Origin: Acidobacteriaceae bacterium
GTDB taxonomy: Bacteria > Acidobacteriota > Terriglobia > Terriglobales > Acidobacteriaceae
Length of the DNA stretch: 43,126 nucleotides
NCBI GenBank assembly: GCA_003152195.1
Contig: PLZN01000084.1
Coordinates: 1-43,126 of the forward strand
Direction of reading: 5' to 3'
Shown here: positions 7,898 through 38,940 of the stretch, piece after piece
How the letters are laid out: every line of letters starts with the position of its first letter
How positions within the stretch are numbered: position 1 is the first letter of the stretch
The notes under the pieces: model-generated
The model's input: only the letters and a program-made list of their open reading frames with translations
Database searches by the model: none
Told to the model about the DNA's origin: nothing
Translations under genes and position numbers: made by a program

Positions 7898-9307
7898 ATG
7901 AATCCAGATCTTTTGCTTCGTGTTGTGGCCACACTTGCGAGCTTCGTCTTGAAGACGACACTTGCGTTCGGGGTATGTTTGGTCTTTAGTTGGCTGGTCG
8001 ACTCACCAAACCGAAGATTTATGATCTGGTTGGGTTTTCTTTACGGGTCGGCAGCATATTGGCTCTGGCTGGCGAAAGGCTTTCTGGCAGGTGGGCAGTC
8101 GGCAGGCGCTCCAAGCGCCTGGGTTCAACCGGTGGCCTCCTCTGTCGGCGCCTGGCAGGTTCCAGGCTCATGGGCCTTCCCGCTTGGTATCACGCTTGAT
8201 GTGATCGGGATTGTTTACCTACTGATCTTGAGCTACGTTTTCTTTGCTCATATCAAGGAACAGCGGCATCTGCAATGGGTTCTCGGATTCAGCACCGAAC
8301 CACCGGTTGAGATTGCAGAGATTTTTCGACGCCTGACGAAGAGCCTCCACGTTGACCGTTCACGATTGTTAGTGCTGTCGGGGACCACATCTCCGGCGAC
8401 GTTCGGATGGCTTCAGCCAACCATCCTGTTGCCGGCCCTCTGTCTCGAACAGGACCGCTCCGAACTCGAAGATATTTTGCGTCACGAACTACACCATGTC
8501 CGCCGCTGGGATTTTGTCTGGAACGGGATCGCTATCGTATGCCGCGGGCTTCTTTTCTTTCATCCCGCGGCCTGGTACGCAGTCCGAAAAATGCAATTCG
8601 ACCGTGAACTCGCCTGCGATCTTGCAGTTATCGCTGACTCTCCAGGAAGAAGAGCAATGTATGCGGAGTGTCTGGTTCACTTTGCGCGGTTGAACTTATC
8701 CCAGGACCCGAAGGCCTGGGGTATAGATTTCGCGGCATCATCTGAACATTTGAAGGTTCGCGTTCACTCCATCCTGGCTGGATCAAAAAAGCGTTCGGGC
8801 TGGTTGCTTGCCTTGCGCGCTGCTTGTGCGGTGACTCTCTTTGCCGGTTTTCTCGGCGTCGTGCCATCTCTGGCAATCCTGCTTACCTACGCCCACCAGC
8901 GGATATCGCAACCATTGACATCAGCGATCCGCGCTTCTTTTTCAGCAACTGGCGCGAGAGCAAATAGAAGAATTCGGTCGTTACCATTTCCGGCTCCAAG
9001 GAGCACGGATGCGGCCGTTGCAAACTTGAACCAGCCGGAAGCCGTGGCGCAGCCCATGACGGACTCGCCATACGGCAAGGTTGAGGAATTGTCTCCAACG
9101 CCAGGTCCACGACTCCTGCACAGACCTCCGGCGTCTGCTACGCCTGGCAACACCGGTGTAAAGCAGCAAACTGTGGCTTTAATTGACGACAATGCGTCGG
9201 GCCAAATTGGTAAGACCGGAGATCGTGAGGGCAAGCAGGCCCTCCAGCAATCCGCTACTGCGGCCATGGGTATATATAAGCGACTGTCTATTGTCGATCG
9301 CCACTAA
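7898..9307 (+). CDS. M56-family (BlaR1-like) membrane zinc protease, no penicillin-sensor domain
   Basis: 469 residues from the ATG at 7898, preferred over 7892 because AGGG lies six bases upstream. Membrane helices are near residues 10-32, 42-62, 95-117 and about 305-330. The protease domain faces the cytoplasm with HELHH at 196-200 (HExxH zinc ligands) and the downstream ELACD (Glu237). In BlaR1/MecR1 this domain triggers cleavage of BlaI. Instead of a C-terminal beta-lactam-binding domain, residues 335-469 are low-complexity Pro/Ala/Ser-rich, so the sensed signal is not a beta-lactam in the known manner. It forms an operon with blaI. Confidence 0.92.
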   Translation: MNPDLLLRVVATLASFVLKTTLAFGVCLVFSWLVDSPNRRFMIWLGFLYGSAAYWLWLAKGFLAGGQSAGAPSAWVQPVASSVGAWQVPGSWAFPLGITLDVIGIVYLLILSYVFFAHIKEQRHLQWVLGFSTEPPVEIAEIFRRLTKSLHVDRSRLLVLSGTTSPATFGWLQPTILLPALCLEQDRSELEDILRHELHHVRRWDFVWNGIAIVCRGLLFFHPAAWYAVRKMQFDRELACDLAVIADSPGRRAMYAECLVHFARLNLSQDPKAWGIDFAASSEHLKVRVHSILAGSKKRSGWLLALRAACAVTLFAGFLGVVPSLAILLTYAHQRISQPLTSAIRASFSATGARANRRIRSLPFPAPRSTDAAVANLNQPEAVAQPMTDSPYGKVEELSPTPGPRLLHRPPASATPGNTGVKQQTVALIDDNASGQIGKTGDREGKQALQQSATAAMGIYKRLSIVDRH

Positions 9308-10005: not shown

Positions 10006-10848
10006 ATGCCCTTTCAGAAGGCATACGTGTGTGCGATTGGATTGACCGCCCTGCTGACCTTGGGTTCACAGAACGCATACGGCCAGGACAACTACGAAAT
10101 CCAGGTGTACGGTTCCGATACGGTGGCGCCGCAGACGACCATGCTTGAGCTGCATAGCAACTTCACGGTGGACGGGTCCAAGGCCGTCCCCGGTTCAAAG
10201 TTTGCGGCTGATGGGACCTATCCAACAAATCATGCCGAGCATGAAACCATCGAGATTACGCAAGGGCTGAACGACTGGTCGGAGGTAGGATTCTACATCT
10301 TTACCAGCGAACGAAGCGGCCAGGGTGTTCAGTGGGTTGGCGATCACATCCGGCCGCGCGTACGCGTGCCGGACAGTTGGCATTGGCCGGTCGGCGTGAG
10401 CCTTTCCACGGAGATTGGGTATCAGCGGCGGGTCTTCTCAACGGATACCTGGACGTGGGAAATCCGCCCAATCGTCGATAAATCGATCGGCCGATGGTAC
10501 TTTGCATTGAATCCAGCGTTGGAGAGATCCTTTCACGGGACAAGCGTGAACCAGGGCCTGCCCTTTTCTCCAAATGCCAAGTTCAGCTATGACTTCAATA
10601 AGTACATCAGCGGAGGCCTGGAGTACTACGCAGCCTACGGAAAGATTGGGGATTTTCTCGGCTTGCACGATCAGCAGCAGCAGTTTTTTCCCGCGGTCGA
10701 TCTGAATGTGTCACCGAACTGGGAGATTAATCTCGGCGTGGGGGTGGGACCGACGGCCGCCACCGATCATCTCATTGTAAAAGGCATTCTCGGGCGGCGC
10801 TTTGATTGGAAGCATCACCGCGCCGGCAGCTCCGGCAGCATACAGTAA
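10006..10848 (+). CDS. Outer-membrane beta-barrel-type protein of unknown function
   Basis: 280 residues from the ATG at 10006. The frame is open further upstream to 9922, but that region holds a predicted operator. Starting here gives a clean signal peptide (MPFQKAYVCAIGLTALLTLG then SQNAYGQ). The mature sequence has many short alternating aromatic/polar strands (TWTWEIRPIVDKSIGRWYFALNP, YISGGLEYYAAYGKIG, INLGVGVGPT) and ends IVKGILGRRFDW, the style of a small outer-membrane barrel. It is followed 12 bases later by the multicopper oxidase locus, so it was probably one operon under BlaI-type control and may have had a metal- or redox-related role. The start is uncertain because GAAGG is only two bases from the ATG. 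Confidence 0.6.
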   Translation: MPFQKAYVCAIGLTALLTLGSQNAYGQDNYEIQVYGSDTVAPQTTMLELHSNFTVDGSKAVPGSKFAADGTYPTNHAEHETIEITQGLNDWSEVGFYIFTSERSGQGVQWVGDHIRPRVRVPDSWHWPVGVSLSTEIGYQRRVFSTDTWTWEIRPIVDKSIGRWYFALNPALERSFHGTSVNQGLPFSPNAKFSYDFNKYISGGLEYYAAYGKIGDFLGLHDQQQQFFPAVDLNVSPNWEINLGVGVGPTAATDHLIVKGILGRRFDWKHHRAGSSGSIQ

Positions 10849-10860
10849 GGAAGGATCGGG

Positions 10861-11827
10861 ATGGATCGTCGCGCATTCCTTGCGCTTTCGAGCGCGGTCA
10901 CAGCGGGCGCCGCTCTTTCTTCAAAGATGACGGCTGGAGCCCAGTCTGCGGCCGACGTCATGCTGGAAGTCGCGCCCGTGAAGCTGGAAATCGCGCCCGG
11001 CAAGGTGGTGCACACCGTGCCTACAATGGCCAGGTGCCGGGGCCGCTGCTCCGCTGGCCCGAAGGCAAGCCAATCACCATCGACGTGCTCAACGGCACGG
11101 CGATCCCTGAGATCGTACATTGGCATGGGCTTTGGATTCCGTCCGACATGGACGGCGCCGCGGAAGAGGGTTCACCCATGATCGTACCCGGCGGCAAGCG
11201 ACGCTATCGCTTTACGCCTCGTCCCTCCGGTTTCCGCTGGTGCCACACCCATAGCTTTGCCGGCCACGACCTGAAAAGGGGAACCTATAGCGGGCAGTTC
11301 GGTTGTTTCTACGTCGAACCTAAAGAGGATCGTGGCGCATACGATCAAGAGCTTTTTCTCACGCTTCATGATTGGAACGCCTCGATGGGCGGGGGAAGCG
11401 ACGCCTCCATGGACGCTTTCTATGATTATGCAACCATCAATGACCGAATGCTGGGTTTCGCCGATCCCGTCAAGGTGCAGGAAGGACGAAGTTCCACGGA
11501 CACGGTGACTTCGACTACTGGACGATCAATAAAAAATCTTTTCCGAAGACTGACACGATTGCGCTGCAGGAAGGCAAGCGCTACCGCCTGGTCATGACCA
11601 ATCGTAGCGCGGACGACCACCCGGTCCACCTGCACCGCCACACTTTCGAGGTGACAAGCCTCGATGGCCAGCCGCTCTCAGGGTTGTACAAGGATGTAGT
11701 TGTGGTGAAGGCGAACAGCACCGCGGAGGTCGATTTTACTGCGTCCAATCCGGGTGCGACGCTCTTCCACTGCCACCAGCAGAGTCACGTGGATTTCGGC
11801 TTTATGATGCTCTTTCGCTATCTATGA
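10861..11827 (+). pseudogene. Multicopper oxidase, broken by a frameshift and an internal deletion
   Basis: The first frame gives a Tat-like start (MDRRAFLALSSAVTAGAAL) and reads to KVVHTV. A missing base near 11017-11022 then shifts the frame to one reading YNGQVPGPLLRWPEG, HWHGLW and WCHTHSF up to VKVQEG. A second break near 11481-11490 moves to a third frame reading FHGHGDFDYW, then NKKSFPKTD, RLVMTNRS, HPVHLHRH and HCHQQSH. All four copper-binding motifs survive (HWHG, HTH, HPVHLH, HCHQQSH), but the cupredoxin section normally between VKVQEG and the late FHGHG segment is absent. The intact enzyme would oxidise copper or a phenolic substrate in the periplasm. The single-base shift could be an assembly error, the deletion less easily. 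Confidence 0.8.
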
Positions 11828-21937: not shown

Positions 21938-23092
21938 ATGCAATGCGACAAGATCACCTATCGCGGCATCCTTCCGGGTGCTGAAGGAGTTACGGGTAAG
22001 AAAGCTATGGATTGGGATGCCATGACGCGCAGGACGCAGTGCGCGGAAGAACCAGGAGGTAGATTTGTGACAACAAGAAAGCCGCATAAAGAAGTTTTAG
22101 AAATTGCCGTGCTCCAGGAGAAGATCGAAGCACGGATTGAGGGCTGGTTTCGTACGGTCTTCGAGAACAGGAAGGTCCTTCTGGCTGCCCTTTTGATGAT
22201 TCTTCCATTCTCATGTGCTCAAGCCCAGTCCAACGCACAGATTGTCTTTCTAATCGTGATCGAGAACCACAACTGGATTGGTTCCGGCGGTATCTCGGGA
22301 AGCTCGGAAGCTCCCTACATTAACAAGACGCTAGTTCCTATCGCGGCCGTCGCAAACAACTATTTCAACCCATCGGGCAATCATCCCAGCTTGCCTAATT
22401 ATCTCTGGATGGAGGCGGGCCAGAACTTTGGCTTGCACGACGACGGACTACCCAGCCAGTATCATCAAAGCACGCACGCCCATCTGAGCGAGCTTTTGCA
22501 GAACGCGGGAGTTGCGTGGCGTGCCTACGAGGAATCTATCTCGGGAACGGACTGTCCGTTGGAGCCTCACGGGCCAAAAGATTCCAGCGGTAGTAACCTC
22601 TACCAACCTCAACATTTTCCACAGATTTACTTCGATGATATGACAGGTGCGCGGAACCCTGCCTCCTCCTATTGCATCCAGCGAGCAAGGCCACTCGCCT
22701 CACTCGCCAGCGATCTTAAGGAGAACAAAATAGGACGGTACAACTTCATCACGCCCGACATGTGTCATAACGGCCATGACCCTTGCGGTGGGAATAAGAT
22801 CGCACATATTGACGCCTGGTTGAAGGCCACGCTGCCGCTCATCTTGGAGTCCGCCCAATACAAGGCGGGTCACGTCGTCATCTTCATCACAGCGGATGAA
22901 GCGCAGAATGGCGATGGACCCATTCCGTTCCTAGCCCTTGGAAATGGTGTAAAGAAGGGCTACAGGAACGAGATCCGTTACACGCATAGCTCCCTGCTGC
23001 GAACACTGGAACAAATCTTCAAGGTAAGCCCGATGCTTGGGGGTGCAGCCAACGCTACCAGCTTGGAGGATCTGTTCTCCGTCTATCCATAA
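21938..23092 (+). CDS. Phosphoesterase (acid phosphatase / phospholipase C-like superfamily)
   Basis: Two in-frame starts have ideal ribosome binding sites: ATG 21938 (AAGGAGG, 7-base spacing) giving 384 residues, and GTG 22067 (AGGAGGT, 6-base spacing) giving 341. The membrane-export segment RKVLLAALLMILPFSCAQAQ sits about 75 or 32 residues in, long for a signal peptide. The catalytic domain shows IVFLIVIENHNW, NNYFNPSGNHPSLPNYLW, YNFITPDMCHNGHD and HVVIFITADEA, the alkaline-phosphatase-superfamily pattern of bacterial phosphoesterases such as AcpA and non-hemolytic phospholipase C. It probably cleaves phosphate esters or phospholipids in the periplasm. Confidence 0.75.
   Translation: MQCDKITYRGILPGAEGVTGKKAMDWDAMTRRTQCAEEPGGRFVTTRKPHKEVLEIAVLQEKIEARIEGWFRTVFENRKVLLAALLMILPFSCAQAQSNAQIVFLIVIENHNWIGSGGISGSSEAPYINKTLVPIAAVANNYFNPSGNHPSLPNYLWMEAGQNFGLHDDGLPSQYHQSTHAHLSELLQNAGVAWRAYEESISGTDCPLEPHGPKDSSGSNLYQPQHFPQIYFDDMTGARNPASSYCIQRARPLASLASDLKENKIGRYNFITPDMCHNGHDPCGGNKIAHIDAWLKATLPLILESAQYKAGHVVIFITADEAQNGDGPIPFLALGNGVKKGYRNEIRYTHSSLLRTLEQIFKVSPMLGGAANATSLEDLFSVYP
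22054..22069 (+). promoter_or_regulatory. Internal ribosome binding site before alternative GTG start
   Basis: AGGAGGT followed six bases later by an in-frame GTG, inside the phosphoesterase frame opened at 21938. This may produce a shorter form of the same protein. Confidence 0.5.
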
Positions 23093-23192
23093 CAATGTTG
23101 AGGCTATCGGATGAAGCGCGGGGGATCGATCGAAGCGGCTTGTTTCAACGGGTCCAGGCGCTCTCCAGCATCTGGCGCTGCGGAGAGATCGG

Positions 23193-23633
23193 TTACTGCG
23201 CCAGCTCCTTCAGCATTTCTTCCACGGTACGAACCCGGCCCATACGGGGGAAGATATTCCGCACCACAAAACCATGTGCCGCGGCGCTGACGCTGCTCAT
23301 CGCATCTTCGACGAAGATCAGCTCATAGCCTCGATCGTGGGCGGCACGTATGGTGGATTCGACACCGAAGTTGGTGGCGGCTCCGCCCAGGATGATCGTA
23401 CGGATTCCTCGCCGGCGTAGCTGCTGGTCGAGCTCCGTACCGTAAAAGGCGCCCCACTGCCGCTTCGTGATCAGCAGGTCGCTGGTCTGATACCCGCTCT
23501 CGGGAATGAGCTGGGAAGCGGTGGCTGGCGGTGGCGGCGCATTCGGATCCCGGCTGGGCGCATCGACCGGAAGATGGAGCGTATCGGTTACATCAACCCG
23601 AACATAGACTACGGTTCCACCCTTTGCGCGGAG
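23193..23633 (-). pseudogene. Isochorismatase-family hydrolase, 5' part deleted
   Basis: About 146 residues remain open, bounded upstream by an in-frame TAG at 23634-23636 and with no plausible start. The sequence reads KGGTVVYVRVDVTD, QTSDLLITKRQWGAFYGTEL, RGIRTIILGGAATNFGVEST and AHDRGYELIFVEDAMSS, a clear match to the C-terminal two thirds of isochorismatase/YcaC-type cysteine hydrolases. The usual catalytic Cys position reads Ala-Thr-Asn, as in the ATNFGVEST subgroup. The missing N-terminal part includes the first catalytic Asp. It abuts the similarly truncated TetR fragment, suggesting one deletion removed both 5' ends. Confidence 0.8.
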
Positions 23634-23639
23634 CTAGGC

Positions 23640-23974
23640 TCAGCATCAAGCAGTTGGTCGATCGGATCTTCGACGTGATGATCGATTTCATGGAGAATCG
23701 ACCGGCCTACATCCCACTGCTGAATGCGCCGAGAAACTATAAACGGGATCCTGCAGCAAGAAACCGGCTGCGGGAACACTTTGCTGCCGCATTTCGTGAA
23801 AAGCAGCCTGAAATGACTCAAGAGGCCGCTTTCCGTGTGGCAACGGTGACCGTGCAGGTAGTGAAAGGGATGAACCCTCTCTATGCCGATGCGAAGGCCG
23901 CCGAAAGAGAGGAGATCGTCAGAGAATTCAAGCTGCTGTTAACGAGCTACCTGAGCTCGCGTCTGCATGGCTGA
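23640..23974 (+). pseudogene. TetR-family regulator, only C-terminal domain left
   Basis: The fragment begins at LSIKQLVDRIFDVMIDFMEN and continues NRLREHFAAAFREK, TQEAAFRVATVTVQVVKGMN and FKLLLTSYLSSRLHG, the helical ligand-binding half of a TetR regulator. The helix-turn-helix domain is missing. The open frame upstream (to 23531) is antisense to the isochorismatase remnant and not homologous to a regulator. It starts where the opposite-strand isochorismatase breaks off. Confidence 0.75.
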
Positions 23975-24015
23975 TTTGGTTCAAAGCGGCGATCGAGTGA
24001 CGGACAAACGGGAAA

Positions 24016-24243
24016 CTACCCAAGAGTTTGCGTGCCACGAAGGGTCGTGAGGGCTACCGCGCAAAGTAGCTTGGCAAACAAGTGGCGGTTTGATTCCCTT
24101 TGGCTATCGACTAAACGAGCACTGTGCGTACGGCACATGACCGGCGTGACTTCATCGTAGCCGTGTACGATAAACTTGGTTCGGCACGGTTCTCCCGCCA
24201 TCGCGAAACAGGTCGAGCAATAAACATCAATACCCTTGTCCAT
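24016..24243 (-). CDS. Small Cys-rich, possible zinc-binding protein (75 aa)
   Basis: Start at 24243 chosen because the frame upstream lacks coding character. Residues 9-36 carry C-S-T-C, then GEPCRT and further on VMCRTHSARL. This C-x2-C-x6-C-R-T...C-R-T-H pattern resembles small zinc-ribbon-like proteins of phages and actinobacteria that contain CxxC...PGxPCRT. The C-terminal half is helical. No ribosome binding site is evident. Function unknown; a phage-derived origin is possible. Confidence 0.42.
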   Translation of the reverse strand: MDKGIDVYCSTCFAMAGEPCRTKFIVHGYDEVTPVMCRTHSARLVDSQRESNRHLFAKLLCAVALTTLRGTQTLG

Positions 24244-24710
24244 AGTATTCACGGTAGGTACTGCGACGAGGGAATGGATGCTTTCGCTGGCTCGGCCGTT
24301 GTGCGCTCTGAGGCCGAACGAACCTGCGAATAACGGCGAATAAGCACGGCGACTCACCTTGTTCCACTATCGAGTCCCTCCCCCGAAAGAATCGATCACA
24401 GAGTCCGGAGAGTCGCCGCTTGTTGAAGAGCATACTGGGTCCTTCAAGATTTGCTACAGTCCTTGCGTAATAAAAGGGAAAATTGTGGTAACGCCGGATG
24501 GTAATGACTGCTCACCATCGGCGTTTCTACAAGGCGCCAAATCCCAAAAAACTTCCTGTAGGGTGGTCGCCGATGGAATGCGGGCTCTGCCGCTTGACAC
24601 CCAACTCATATCGGAATCTAATCGCCCACGTTCCTTTTTGCCAGGGTACGCAATTCGGCCAGGTCGAAACCAAAAGAAAGATAAGCGGAATTTCCGGACG
24701 ACTAAAAAAT
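24244..24710. other. 467-base leader region of the PQQ dehydrogenase gene
   Basis: It contains repeat copy A (24372-24506). Open frames run through it toward 24711, but their composition is unlike the neighbouring proteins. After copy A comes a segment coding in one frame for KIVVTPDGN, the phrase also encoded after copy B. No terminator or riboswitch was recognised. Confidence 0.45.
24372..24506 (+). repeat. Dispersed repeat, copy A
   Basis: Shares about 107 of 137 aligned positions (hand count) with 32612-32748, including an exact 22-base start (GAGTCCCTCCCCC then GAAAGAATC) and the block ATTGTGGTAAC near its end. Alignment needs one 2-base gap. No terminal inverted repeats seen. Confidence 0.7.
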
Positions 24711-26783
24711 ATGCACCTCAGCATCTCGTTTCTACTCGTTGGCTCTCTGGCCATCTCTATCGGGGCTTGCAAGAAATCCACTCCGGCAACGGCCGCCGGC
24801 GATGGGGCCGATTGGACCATGTACGGAAGGACCAACGACGAGCAACGGTTCAGCCCCTTACGTCAGATCAACGAGCAGAACATTGGGCAGCTCGGCCTCG
24901 TCTGGAGTAGAGAACTCGGCACGACACGTGGCCTGGAAGCTACGCCACTAGTCTCGAATGGAGTGATCTACACGACGGGGGAGTGGAGCGTCGCCTATGC
25001 GCTGGATGCCAAAAACGGCAAAATCCTATGGACCTTTGATCCCAAGGTACCTCGTACCCATGCGCGCACGATCTGCTGCGACGTTGTCAATCGAGGAGTT
25101 GCCCTCTACCACGGCAAGGTGTACCTGGGCACGCTTGACGGCCGGCTCATCGCTCTAGACGCCAAATCCGGGAATCCTGTTTGGGATGTAGTCATCGCCG
25201 GCCAATCCAAACCCTATGCGATTACCGGCGCACCACGCATCGTCAAGGGGATGGTTCTTATCGGGAACGCCGGCTCAGAGTTTGGTGTGCGAGGTTACAT
25301 CTCCGCATACGATGCGGAAAGCGGGAAGCTGGTCTGGCGCACCTACACCGTGCCAGGCGATCCCGCGCTGGGGTTCGAGTCCAAAGCACTGGAAAGTGCC
25401 GCGAAAACCTGGCACGGAAAGTGGTGGGTTGCGGGCGGCGGAGGCACGCCGTGGGACGCAATCGTCTATGATCCCGAACTCGATCTCGTCTACGCCGGCA
25501 CGGGCAACGGAACGGCGTGGTACCGCGAACTGCGCAGCCCGGGCGGAGGCGACAATCTGTATATCGCCTCCATATTGGCGCTGCGCGCAAGCGACGGGGA
25601 GTTGGTGTGGCACTATCAGGTAACGCCGGGGGAAAACTGGGACTACGATGCTACGCAGCCTTTAATGCTCGCAGATCTGAAAATAGACGGCACAGCACGC
25701 AAGGTCATCATGCAGGCATCGAAGAACGGATTTTTCTACGTGCTTGATCGCCAGACCGGCCAGTTCCTTTCTGCGAAACCGTTTGTCAAGGGCGTTACCT
25801 GGGCCAGCGGAATCGATCCCAAGAGCGGACGACCAGTGGAATCGGCAACTGCGCGTGACGGCCTTAACGCGGTAGTGGTTTCCCCTGCACCGGGTGGCGC
25901 TCACAACTGGTATCCCATGGCGTTTGATCCCACCACAGGTCTTGTCTACGTGCCTGCAAGAGAAGGCTCTTCTGCGCTTCACGCTCCAGACAAGCATTGG
26001 ACCTCAAATATCACGAACTGGAATCGCGGCGAGGATGCAGCGTACGACGGGCCGCTTCTGGCCAAATTTCTGTCTTCTCCTCCCATGACGGGCCATTTGA
26101 TCGCCTGGAATCCGGTCGAGCAACGCGAGGTGTGGAGCGTCTCTCTTCCCCAGGTCGAAAGCGGCGGCGTCCTGGCGACCGCGGGCAACCTGGTCTTCCA
26201 GGGCCGCTCGGATGGAGTGTTCTGCGCCTATCGCGCGACCGACGGCAAGAAGCTTTGGGAGTTCAACGCTGGCACGGGCATTATGGCTCCGCCCGTCACG
26301 TACCTCCTCGGCGGAGTTCAATACATTACGCTCATGGTTGGCTGGGGCGGCGCCGCGGGAATTAACAATATCCCGGGCAGCGGCCCTGTCACGCCCGGCT
26401 TTGGCCGCATCCTTACCTTCGCCCTTGGCGCCAACGCAAGACTCGAAATTCCTCCATTCGGACATCAAGGGCCGCCTTCGCCCGCTATCCACATGAACGC
26501 CACGCCAGCTACCATCCACGAAGGCGATATCCTTTTCACGCGGCACTGTTTCTACTGCCACGGAGTGGGGGTAGTCTCGAGCTCCGGCATTCCTGACCTG
26601 CGCTATGCTACCGCGGAAACCCACCATCAATTCGAGTCCATCGTGCTGGGAGGCGCTCGCGAGCAATTTGGAATGCCGTCGTTCAAAGACGCGCTCACGC
26701 GTGATCAAGTGCGAGCGATCCAGGCCTATATTTTGTCCCGCGCTGCAGCCGCAGCCCATCCGCCGTCGAGCAAAGCACCCTGA
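24711..26783 (+). CDS. PQQ-dependent type II (quinohemoprotein) alcohol dehydrogenase
   Basis: 690 residues from the ATG at 24711. The N terminus is a lipoprotein-type signal with Cys20 in AISIGAC. The PQQ beta-propeller (about 35-580) shows the vicinal disulfide Cys122-Cys123 (TICCDVVNRG), GSEFGVRGY, TGNGTAW and the catalytic Asp311 in NWDYD. It has Asp at position +2 (Asp313), where well-known calcium enzymes of this type have a different residue. The C-terminal cytochrome c domain has CFYCH at 613-617 and a Met ligand in FGMPSF. It would oxidise alcohols or aldehydes at the periplasmic side and pass electrons through the heme. No cotranscribed partner is evident. Confidence 0.92.
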   Translation: MHLSISFLLVGSLAISIGACKKSTPATAAGDGADWTMYGRTNDEQRFSPLRQINEQNIGQLGLVWSRELGTTRGLEATPLVSNGVIYTTGEWSVAYALDAKNGKILWTFDPKVPRTHARTICCDVVNRGVALYHGKVYLGTLDGRLIALDAKSGNPVWDVVIAGQSKPYAITGAPRIVKGMVLIGNAGSEFGVRGYISAYDAESGKLVWRTYTVPGDPALGFESKALESAAKTWHGKWWVAGGGGTPWDAIVYDPELDLVYAGTGNGTAWYRELRSPGGGDNLYIASILALRASDGELVWHYQVTPGENWDYDATQPLMLADLKIDGTARKVIMQASKNGFFYVLDRQTGQFLSAKPFVKGVTWASGIDPKSGRPVESATARDGLNAVVVSPAPGGAHNWYPMAFDPTTGLVYVPAREGSSALHAPDKHWTSNITNWNRGEDAAYDGPLLAKFLSSPPMTGHLIAWNPVEQREVWSVSLPQVESGGVLATAGNLVFQGRSDGVFCAYRATDGKKLWEFNAGTGIMAPPVTYLLGGVQYITLMVGWGGAAGINNIPGSGPVTPGFGRILTFALGANARLEIPPFGHQGPPSPAIHMNATPATIHEGDILFTRHCFYCHGVGVVSSSGIPDLRYATAETHHQFESIVLGGAREQFGMPSFKDALTRDQVRAIQAYILSRAAAAAHPPSSKAP

Positions 26784-36638: not shown

Positions 36639-38239
36639 AAAGGCTCGCGCTGACTCTCTCATTGGCTCTTGCATCCTCGTTATGCGCCCAAGTTACTGAC
36701 AAACAATTGGAGCTATCGCCGGACAGCGATTGGCTCCACTACAACGGCGGTTACAGCAGCCAGCGCCACAGTGGGCTGGATCAGATCAGGCTCTCGAATG
36801 TCGGTTCGCTGGTGAGCAAGTGGGTGTATCACGTGCCCGGAGGCGGTGGCCTGCAGTCTGTGCCGATTGTGGTCGATGGCGTGATGTACATCACGCAGCC
36901 GAATGAGATTTACGCGCTCGACGGCCGCAGCGGACGATTGATCTGGCAGTATCACCATATTCTGGCCAAGGCGCCGGATCGTGAAGGCCCCAACCGGGGC
37001 GTGGCTGTCTTCGAAGACAAGGTTTACTTCACCACCACCGATTCTTTCCTGATCGCGCTGAATACGGCCAGCGGGAACGTTCTCTGGCAAAGCAAGATCG
37101 CGGAGGCAAGCGAGGGGTACCATTCGTCTGCGGCGCCGCTCGTGGCCAAAGGGAAGGTGATGGTTGGGGTGATTTACGGTGATCGCGGGCTCAACGGCTT
37201 TCTGGTCGCGTTTGACGCCAGGACCGGCGAGCGTTTGTGGCAATTTGACTCGATACCGAAGCCGGGCGAACCTGGCTCAGAGAGCTGGGTAGGGGACTCC
37301 TGGAAGCACGCCGGCGGAGCCACCTGGCTGACGGGCAGCTACGATCCGGAGCTGAACCTTCTCTACTGGGCGATCGGGAACCCTTCTCCGGATTTCAACG
37401 GCGACGTGCGTGAGGGCGATAACCTTTACACCGACTCGATGGTCGCTCTCGGCCTGAACACGGGCAAGATGAAATGGCACTTCCAGTTCACGCCGCACGA
37501 TGTTATGGATTGGGACGGGGCCGAGATTCCGGTGCTGGTGGATGCCCCCTTTGACGGTAAGATGCGCAAGCTGCTGGTGCAGGCGGATCGCAACGGTTTC
37601 TATTACGTTTTAGACCGCGAGACCGGGCAGTTTCTGCACGGCAGCAAACTTGCGCGCCAGGTGAATTGGGCTACCGGTCTCACTGCGCAGGGCCGGCCCA
37701 TTCTTGTCCCGGGGATTGAACCGAGCCTGAAGGGGACCAAGGTTTGCCCGTCCTCGACTGGCGCAACGAACTGGATGTCGCCTACGTACAACCCGCAGAC
37801 CGGGCTCTTCTATTTCGTTGCTCTCGAAGGCTGCGGGCTGGCGACCAAGAACACGGAGAAGTTCCGTCCGGGTGGCTTTCAGTATCGCGCAGGGGGCGAT
37901 GTCCTGCTTAAGGACGATACCTGGAAAGTGTATGTGCGGGCGCTTGAACTGACGACGGGCAAACAGGTGTGGGAACAGGAACGCGTCGGATCGGGTAGCC
38001 TGGGAGGCGGATTGCTCTCGACCGCAGGCGGGGTAATTTTTTCCGGCGAGCTTAACGGAGAATTCGTCGCCCTGAATGCCAAGACCGGCCAGCCTGTGTG
38101 GCACTTCAACACCGGCCAACCGATCAACTCGCAGCCGATGACTTATATGGTGGATGGAAAGCAATACGTAGGGTTGACGGCGAACTCCGATGTTTTTGGC
38201 TTCGCGCTTTTCGAGCCGGAAAAGGCGCTGGCAAAATGA
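36635..38239 (+). CDS. PQQ-dependent dehydrogenase (methanol/ethanol dehydrogenase family)
   Basis: 534 residues with a signal peptide (MKRLALTLSLALASSLCAQ). Propeller repeats of the type IYALDGRSGRLIWQ and VLWQSKI are present. It lacks the vicinal Cys pair (GPNRGVAV in its place). The active site reads PHDVMDWDGAE, with the catalytic Asp292 and a second Asp at +2 (Asp294), as in lanthanide-using enzymes. The upstream Glu ligand region reads YGDRGLNGF, with Asp instead of Glu. There is no fused cytochrome domain; the preceding gene supplies it. Translation is coupled at both ends (ATGA with the cytochrome, ATGA with the epimerase). It probably oxidises a sugar or alcohol in the periplasm. Confidence 0.88.
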   Translation: MKRLALTLSLALASSLCAQVTDKQLELSPDSDWLHYNGGYSSQRHSGLDQIRLSNVGSLVSKWVYHVPGGGGLQSVPIVVDGVMYITQPNEIYALDGRSGRLIWQYHHILAKAPDREGPNRGVAVFEDKVYFTTTDSFLIALNTASGNVLWQSKIAEASEGYHSSAAPLVAKGKVMVGVIYGDRGLNGFLVAFDARTGERLWQFDSIPKPGEPGSESWVGDSWKHAGGATWLTGSYDPELNLLYWAIGNPSPDFNGDVREGDNLYTDSMVALGLNTGKMKWHFQFTPHDVMDWDGAEIPVLVDAPFDGKMRKLLVQADRNGFYYVLDRETGQFLHGSKLARQVNWATGLTAQGRPILVPGIEPSLKGTKVCPSSTGATNWMSPTYNPQTGLFYFVALEGCGLATKNTEKFRPGGFQYRAGGDVLLKDDTWKVYVRALELTTGKQVWEQERVGSGSLGGGLLSTAGGVIFSGELNGEFVALNAKTGQPVWHFNTGQPINSQPMTYMVDGKQYVGLTANSDVFGFALFEPEKALAK

Positions 38240-38940
38240 ACCATCGATTCACGCCAGTCGCAGCACTTCTAGCCTTTGGCCTTGCCGCTCACCTGAGCTT
38301 CGGCCAAGACCGCTACACCGTATCGGAGGAAGATGCCAACGGCCCGGGATCGCCGCGTGTTGTGGTCTTGCGGGATAGCGTCGCCGGCGTAGAGGCGGCC
38401 GTCGCTCCCTCCGAGGGCGGAGAGCTCAGCAGCTACAAAGTAAAGTTCAACGATCAGTGGATCGAACTACTCTATCGTGCCCGCGATTATTCGAGCCGTC
38501 CGGGCTTCAGGGGTAAGGCCATGCAACTCTGGCCTGCAGTTGGTCCTCAATATCCGGTAGGTACGATCCCCAAAGCAAGCTGCGGCGATGGTACCTATCC
38601 GGTCGCCGGCAAGACCTATCCGATGCCGTGTCACGGTTTTGCTAAAACTCTTCCATGGAACGAGATCACTAGATCGGCGGACGACAAAGGCGCACGAGTC
38701 ACTGTGGAACTGCGCGATTCAGACGCTACGCGCCGCTTTTATCCATTTGCCTTCAAAGTGGATACCACTTATCAGATTGCCAATGGACAGCGGTCGCTCA
38801 ACTACGTAGTGACCTCGGATCCTTCAAACAAGGAAGCGCTCCGGGCACTTGCTCCTCTAGTTTACGACGGCGGGGTATGGGTCAGGTCGGGCTCAGCCGC
38901 AATCCAGGCAAGTAGCTGTTCGCGCTGCGTATCCTCTTAG
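38236..38940 (+). CDS. Aldose 1-epimerase-like protein, C-terminally truncated
   Basis: 234 residues. It starts MNHRFTPVAALLAFGLAAHL with a signal peptide, so it would be periplasmic. The first two thirds match galactose mutarotase-like folds: AAVAPSEGGELSSYKVKFND, MQLWPAVGPQYP, MPCHGFAKTLPWNE and FKVDTTYQIANGQRSLNYVV. The family normally continues with a conserved His in a GNHITF-type strand and a catalytic Glu. Here the sequence changes after DPSNKE to an unrelated tail ending SSCSRCVSS. It is therefore probably inactive, a remnant of the third gene of the cytochrome-PQQ operon. Confidence 0.7.
   Translation: MNHRFTPVAALLAFGLAAHLSFGQDRYTVSEEDANGPGSPRVVVLRDSVAGVEAAVAPSEGGELSSYKVKFNDQWIELLYRARDYSSRPGFRGKAMQLWPAVGPQYPVGTIPKASCGDGTYPVAGKTYPMPCHGFAKTLPWNEITRSADDKGARVTVELRDSDATRRFYPFAFKVDTTYQIANGQRSLNYVVTSDPSNKEALRALAPLVYDGGVWVRSGSAAIQASSCSRCVSS

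Follow-up and report, generated by a model that had tools for sequence, protein, structure and literature searches.

Facing 5' ends lost from a TetR–isochorismatase gene pair in an acidobacterial draft genome: a probable deletion scar

What removed the starts of two neighbouring genes at the same point of an acidobacterial genome? In a 43,126-nucleotide stretch of Acidobacteriaceae DNA, here called the window, a hydrolase gene of the isochorismatase family and a TetR-family regulator gene lie head to head, each cut off where the two meet (Table 1). A sequence-only reading had attributed this arrangement to one deletion that took both N-terminal regions and the shared promoter between them. The window is contig C199 of a draft genome (G000; 6.8 Mb in 631 contigs, 77% complete, 3% contamination), and an error of assembly has to be weighed against a real loss. 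The comparisons below lead us to favour, with good though not full confidence, a real deletion at the junction, with decay of a gene module as the best explanation.

Table 1. Features at the junction (window positions)
Feature	Position	Strand	Remark
Probable start remnant of EmrB/DHA2-type efflux gene	23146..23175	-	8 of 10 residues as in L083 residues 8-17
Isochorismatase-family (YecD-like) hydrolase gene, 3' part	23193..23633	-	First ~44 codons absent
Putative deletion junction	23634..23638	.	~460 bp absent relative to intact pairs
TetR-family regulator gene, 3' part	23639..23974	+	First ~94 codons, including the helix-turn-helix, absent

Two truncated genes at one junction

The hydrolase fragment matches positions 38-175 of the 175-position PF00857 Isochorismatase profile (E 5.5e-31). 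The first 37 positions are absent and the domain is thus incomplete. In the TetR fragment only the C-terminal Pfam models PF17918 and PF17928 found a match, and the TetR_N helix-turn-helix was not detected there. A blastn alignment to the intact isochorismatase gene of a genome from the same bacterial family (G014, locus L006) spans 23194-23639 and ends at that point. The reading frames are broken in the same place: in the hydrolase frame a stop codon immediately precedes the first homologous residue, and this frame has no listed ORF of at least 60 aa with an ATG, GTG or TTG start. Upstream of its homology the TetR frame continues only through the antisense of the isochorismatase, from a GTG at 23531. 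Five bases separate the two homologies. Profiles, alignment and frames therefore agree that both genes are 5'-truncated at one point, and the breakpoint at 23634-23638 falls within the 23634-23640 first proposed.

The hydrolase fragment scored best among NCBIfam models with PRK11440, from position 45 and at 146.5 bits, and the intact hydrolase of locus L085 reached 193.8 bits, just below the cut-off of 195. With both scores under the cut-off, 'YecD-like' denotes likeness and no membership. The closest named isochorismatase relatives of the fragment are acidobacterial. In isochorismatase-family domains the catalytic Asp lies in the N-terminal part, and intact relatives of the hydrolase carry a 'LIDLQ' stretch at the N-terminus. 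Neither remnant is expected to work, given a regulator without helix-turn-helix, the lack of an intact promoter region and a hydrolase domain that, for the most part, has no in-frame start.

Intact pairs in relatives and the missing segment

Of 299 genomes of the class, 48 have relatives of the TetR protein and 135 have relatives of the isochorismatase; at the family level, TetR relatives were found in 52 of 398 genomes (G000 counted each time). Of 108 fetched loci compared with the two fragments, 44 matched both and 64 the isochorismatase only, some of the latter with little upstream sequence. All 44 loci matching both have the two genes in divergent orientation. Of these, 19 had been fetched via TetR hits or because both hits lay close together and 25 via the isochorismatase alone. 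As a TetR gene faces the isochorismatase in 25 of the 80 loci for which the isochorismatase was the sole query, the pairing is no product of selection.

Across the 44 loci, the two points that meet at the window junction lie 444-611 bp apart. The four rows that score best for both genes together have identical values in pairs and look like duplicate fetches of two loci. The first (L085/L079, an Acidobacteria MAG) shares 72% identity in TetR and 73% in the hydrolase and has 464 bp where the window has 5; the second (L083/L081, Granulicella sp. dw_53) shares 63% and 75% and has 468 bp. These distances indicate that about 460 bp are missing from the window. Judged by L085, the absent block encodes about 94 TetR residues, including the DNA-binding domain region, and about 44 hydrolase residues, and in intact pairs it also comprises the region between the two genes, that is, the shared promoter region. 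The relatives thus show what the window, as assembled, lacks. The intact divergent pair that had been predicted in relatives was indeed present, and, for the assembled sequence, the loss of both N-terminal regions with the shared promoter is supported. One event accounts for the junction most simply.

A DNA search recovered no intact pair from any sequenced congener, so the ancestral state is drawn from other genera. The nearest isochorismatase relative, that of G014 (81%), has neither the TetR nor the efflux gene alongside. This lone hydrolase is an awkward fit to the proposed history of the module. Trees placed both fragments among acidobacterial sequences, both with poor resolution. Comparing 21 flanking genes of the window with 87 relative loci gave only weak ABC and MFS matches (25-32%), none of which neighbours a pair in the window's arrangement, a neutral result. 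On either side of the site the window has a phosphoesterase gene (21938-23092) and a PQQ gene (24498-26783). Among the papers listed by literature searches, titles and abstract openings contain no description of this locus or module.

Intact pairs also share a sequence signature between the genes, consisting of two TGAGG-N4-CCTCA palindromes with a start-to-start spacing of 31-38 bp. We hand-picked 28 of the 44 loci, spanning Acidobacteriota and Burkholderiales (e.g. L083, L085, L031), and all 28 had at least two palindromes at 8 or more of the 10 letters. Shuffling the letters would give 6.5 matches where these loci have 58; because the motif had been spotted in the same sequences, this count describes the motif rather than testing it. 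By eye, the first palindrome of several loci lies between TTGACA-like and TATTAT-like boxes pointing at the hydrolase. The twin palindromes are probably operators of the TetR protein, which would then act by repression. Near the window junction the palindrome is absent, and the one near match in the window (31701) is at chance level.

This absence bears on whether the remnants might still be used, as a 147-aa frame from the GTG at 23531 that would join an antisense-coded leader to the TetR C-terminal domain. That frame is open and its TetR part has no stops. However, the junction has neither an intact promoter/operator region nor a nearby palindrome, and none of the pairs examined contained such a fusion. 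We give a functional fusion almost no credence and continue to read the two fragments as remnants of a deletion.

The letters of the relatives place the breakpoint to about five bases. A few bases of homology may have been present at the breakpoint, and the deletion presumably arose through short homology or end joining. A repeat search of 23100-24100 returned only short two-copy families, none bracketing the junction; on this ground we rejected the idea that an insertion element or some repeat lies there, a weak test as a deletion removes one copy. A mobile origin of the TetR fragment was likewise rejected. The fragment had no plasmid match at E 1e-5, and of the 18 stretches in viral contigs that matched a pattern none encoded a relative.

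A probable efflux-gene remnant beside the hydrolase

In four of the six best distinct pairs (L083, L085, L078 and L080, not L084 or L031) an MFS gene directly follows the hydrolase gene, and in L085 its product passes the TIGR00711 cut-off as an efflux protein of DHA2/EmrB type. Among 109 loci, such a gene directly follows in 14 of 45 TetR-paired and 0 of 64 unpaired loci, where the 14 include two likely duplicates and a few loci end too soon downstream. Just beyond the isochorismatase stop, the window reads PDAGERLDPL on the minus strand, and its frame relative to the hydrolase stop is that seen in L083. Likeness to the L083 protein stops after these ten residues.

The match itself is short, with E = 0.74 in a search of the whole window, which is not significant, and 0.020 in a 1.7 kb stretch. 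The same stretch gave a match at E 0.006 antisense to the TetR fragment, with an internal stop, which we deemed meaningless. At the start position the window has ACC and no ATG. The case for a remnant instead rests on its place, its frame and an N-terminus control, in which its score against four N-termini in three frames was reached by none of 2000 random 100-mers and none of 2310 slices of the window, the four references having been picked after the likeness was noticed. No close copy of the transporter was found elsewhere in the bin, the best long hit having 32% identity and a short one 53% over 74 residues. The ten codons are thus probably what is left of the efflux-gene start, with a probable second scar near 23146, about 490 bp from the junction, and no other part of the gene left. 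What remains here resembles a ruined TetR/hydrolase/efflux module.

Could the two fragments instead come from different places and have been joined by a rearrangement? The nearest isochorismatase relative, in G014, stands alone, and the tree neighbours differ in order: L031 then L085 for TetR, but G014, L083 and L085 for the isochorismatase. Both trees are poorly resolved, however, and such a join would have to bring together two natural partners, head to head as they normally stand. The probable efflux remnant also marks the window isochorismatase as the TetR-paired type, as the efflux gene follows only paired loci in the counts above. We regard a rearrangement as very improbable and retain deletion within one pair.

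The preferred history would begin with an acidobacterial ancestor in which a TetR gene faced a YecD-like hydrolase gene that was followed by an EmrB-type efflux gene, as a TetR-controlled module. About 460 bp would then have gone in one deletion: some 94 codons from the TetR start, the promoter/operator region that both genes shared, and some 44 codons from the hydrolase start, so that only the 3' parts remained, facing each other head to head. The efflux gene would have disappeared almost entirely through a second loss.

Neither fragment contains a stop. The hydrolase fragment and the intact G014 copy (81%) diverged with a dN/dS of 0.19, and of the 27 residues at which they differ, 11 changed on the window lineage and 8 on that of G014, with 8 unassignable. 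The low ratio and the absence of stops indicate divergence mostly under constraint, which implies that the loss is recent or else not real. The suggestion that the region was recently rearranged gains some support from these constrained-looking fragments and from the probable second scar.

Real loss or assembly error

We surveyed the window and 60 other G000 contigs (617,893 bases, at most 20 kb per contig) and 40 contigs of a congeneric genome, G001. In the G000 sample, 95,610 bases were protein-covered and held four frame-changing junction clusters; the G001 sample held none in 82,709. This difference is only a hint, as the query sets differ, the oxidase described next was deliberately sought, with relatives fetched for it, and the numbers are small. 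The four clusters lie in that oxidase, on C17 (one) and on C33 (two).

The multicopper oxidase gene (PF07732; window 10830-11821, plus strand) has lost about 376 bp internally relative to L178 and L179. Residues 1-217 of L179 align at 10830-11480 and residues 345-456 at 11486-11821, in different frames; the loss is estimated from these nearly abutting segments. The C17 cluster (L196, near 8500) is a frame-changing internal loss of about 104 nt, with a match identity of only 25-36%. On C33 (L232), near 7918 and 8347, an internal loss of about 233 nt accompanies a frameshift. An aldose-epimerase-like gene in the window (38098-38940, plus strand) matches only positions 13-147 of the 299 in PF01263 and may be truncated. 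The G000 bin, at 6.8 Mb, exceeds the two congeneric genomes searched (3.0 and 3.2 Mb).

Such losses could mean that G000 is gathering pseudogenes or that the assembly dropped pieces. For the junction, an assembly artefact would mean that the cell keeps an intact module of which the draft skipped about 460 bp, e.g. where read pairs were merged in error or a gap was closed badly. The bin is fragmented, the oxidase gene on the same contig also lacks a few hundred bases with a change of frame, clusters were seen in G000 and not in its congener, and the fragments are undecayed beyond the break, as whole genes would be. Against this, the missing halves were not found on other contigs. TetR hits elsewhere in the bin had 25-40% identity, none of them a high-identity copy of the missing half, and the hydrolase start was likewise not found, the only other isochorismatase hit being an intact paralogue on C16. 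The probable second loss in the same module would need an independent artefact, and the broken C33 gene, with its 233-nt loss and separate frameshift, resembles decay more than random skips.

A search with 76 E. coli housekeeping proteins returned no G000 row at E 1e-15 and at least 38% identity in the 617,893 bases (matches below 38% were dropped uncounted) and 7 rows in the G001 sample (507,833 bases). E. coli RpoC, searched without a positive control, had no match in the whole G000 bin. This empty search has no bearing on assembly error.

That the module and C33 each carry two lesions is more in keeping with decay, and we infer that the assembly is true at the junction. An artefact is unlikely, although it keeps a real share of our doubt. 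A wider version of the decay reading, in which G000 as a whole is decaying on a large scale and loses accessory genes through internal deletions of about 100-500 bp that break the frame, with the module as one visible case, seems unlikely to us.

Assembly error aside, the scar would thus be ordinary gene decay. Taken alone, it matters little: a regulator gene and an enzyme gene, both broken, in the draft bin of a soil acidobacterium. The intact module with its twin palindromes offers a clean target for finding what this TetR/efflux system, common to Acidobacteriota and Burkholderiales, responds to. The repeated losses of a few hundred bases point to an eroding assembly or an eroding genome and call for caution with 'missing gene' claims from G000.

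In gene families, order and orientation, the site corresponds to the intact TetR/YecD-like hydrolase/EmrB loci of Acidobacteriota (L083, L085), with the efflux gene represented by a probable ten-codon remnant. Set beside these loci, the window has neither the helix-turn-helix nor the hydrolase N-terminus; the intergenic region with its twin palindromes is gone, and so is almost the whole transporter. Deletion across a divergent promoter, leaving a pseudogene pair, is a known general kind of event. Our case, read from a draft assembly, does not differ in kind from known deletion-made pseudogene pairs, in which both divergent 5' ends and the shared promoter are lost at one junction, as here.
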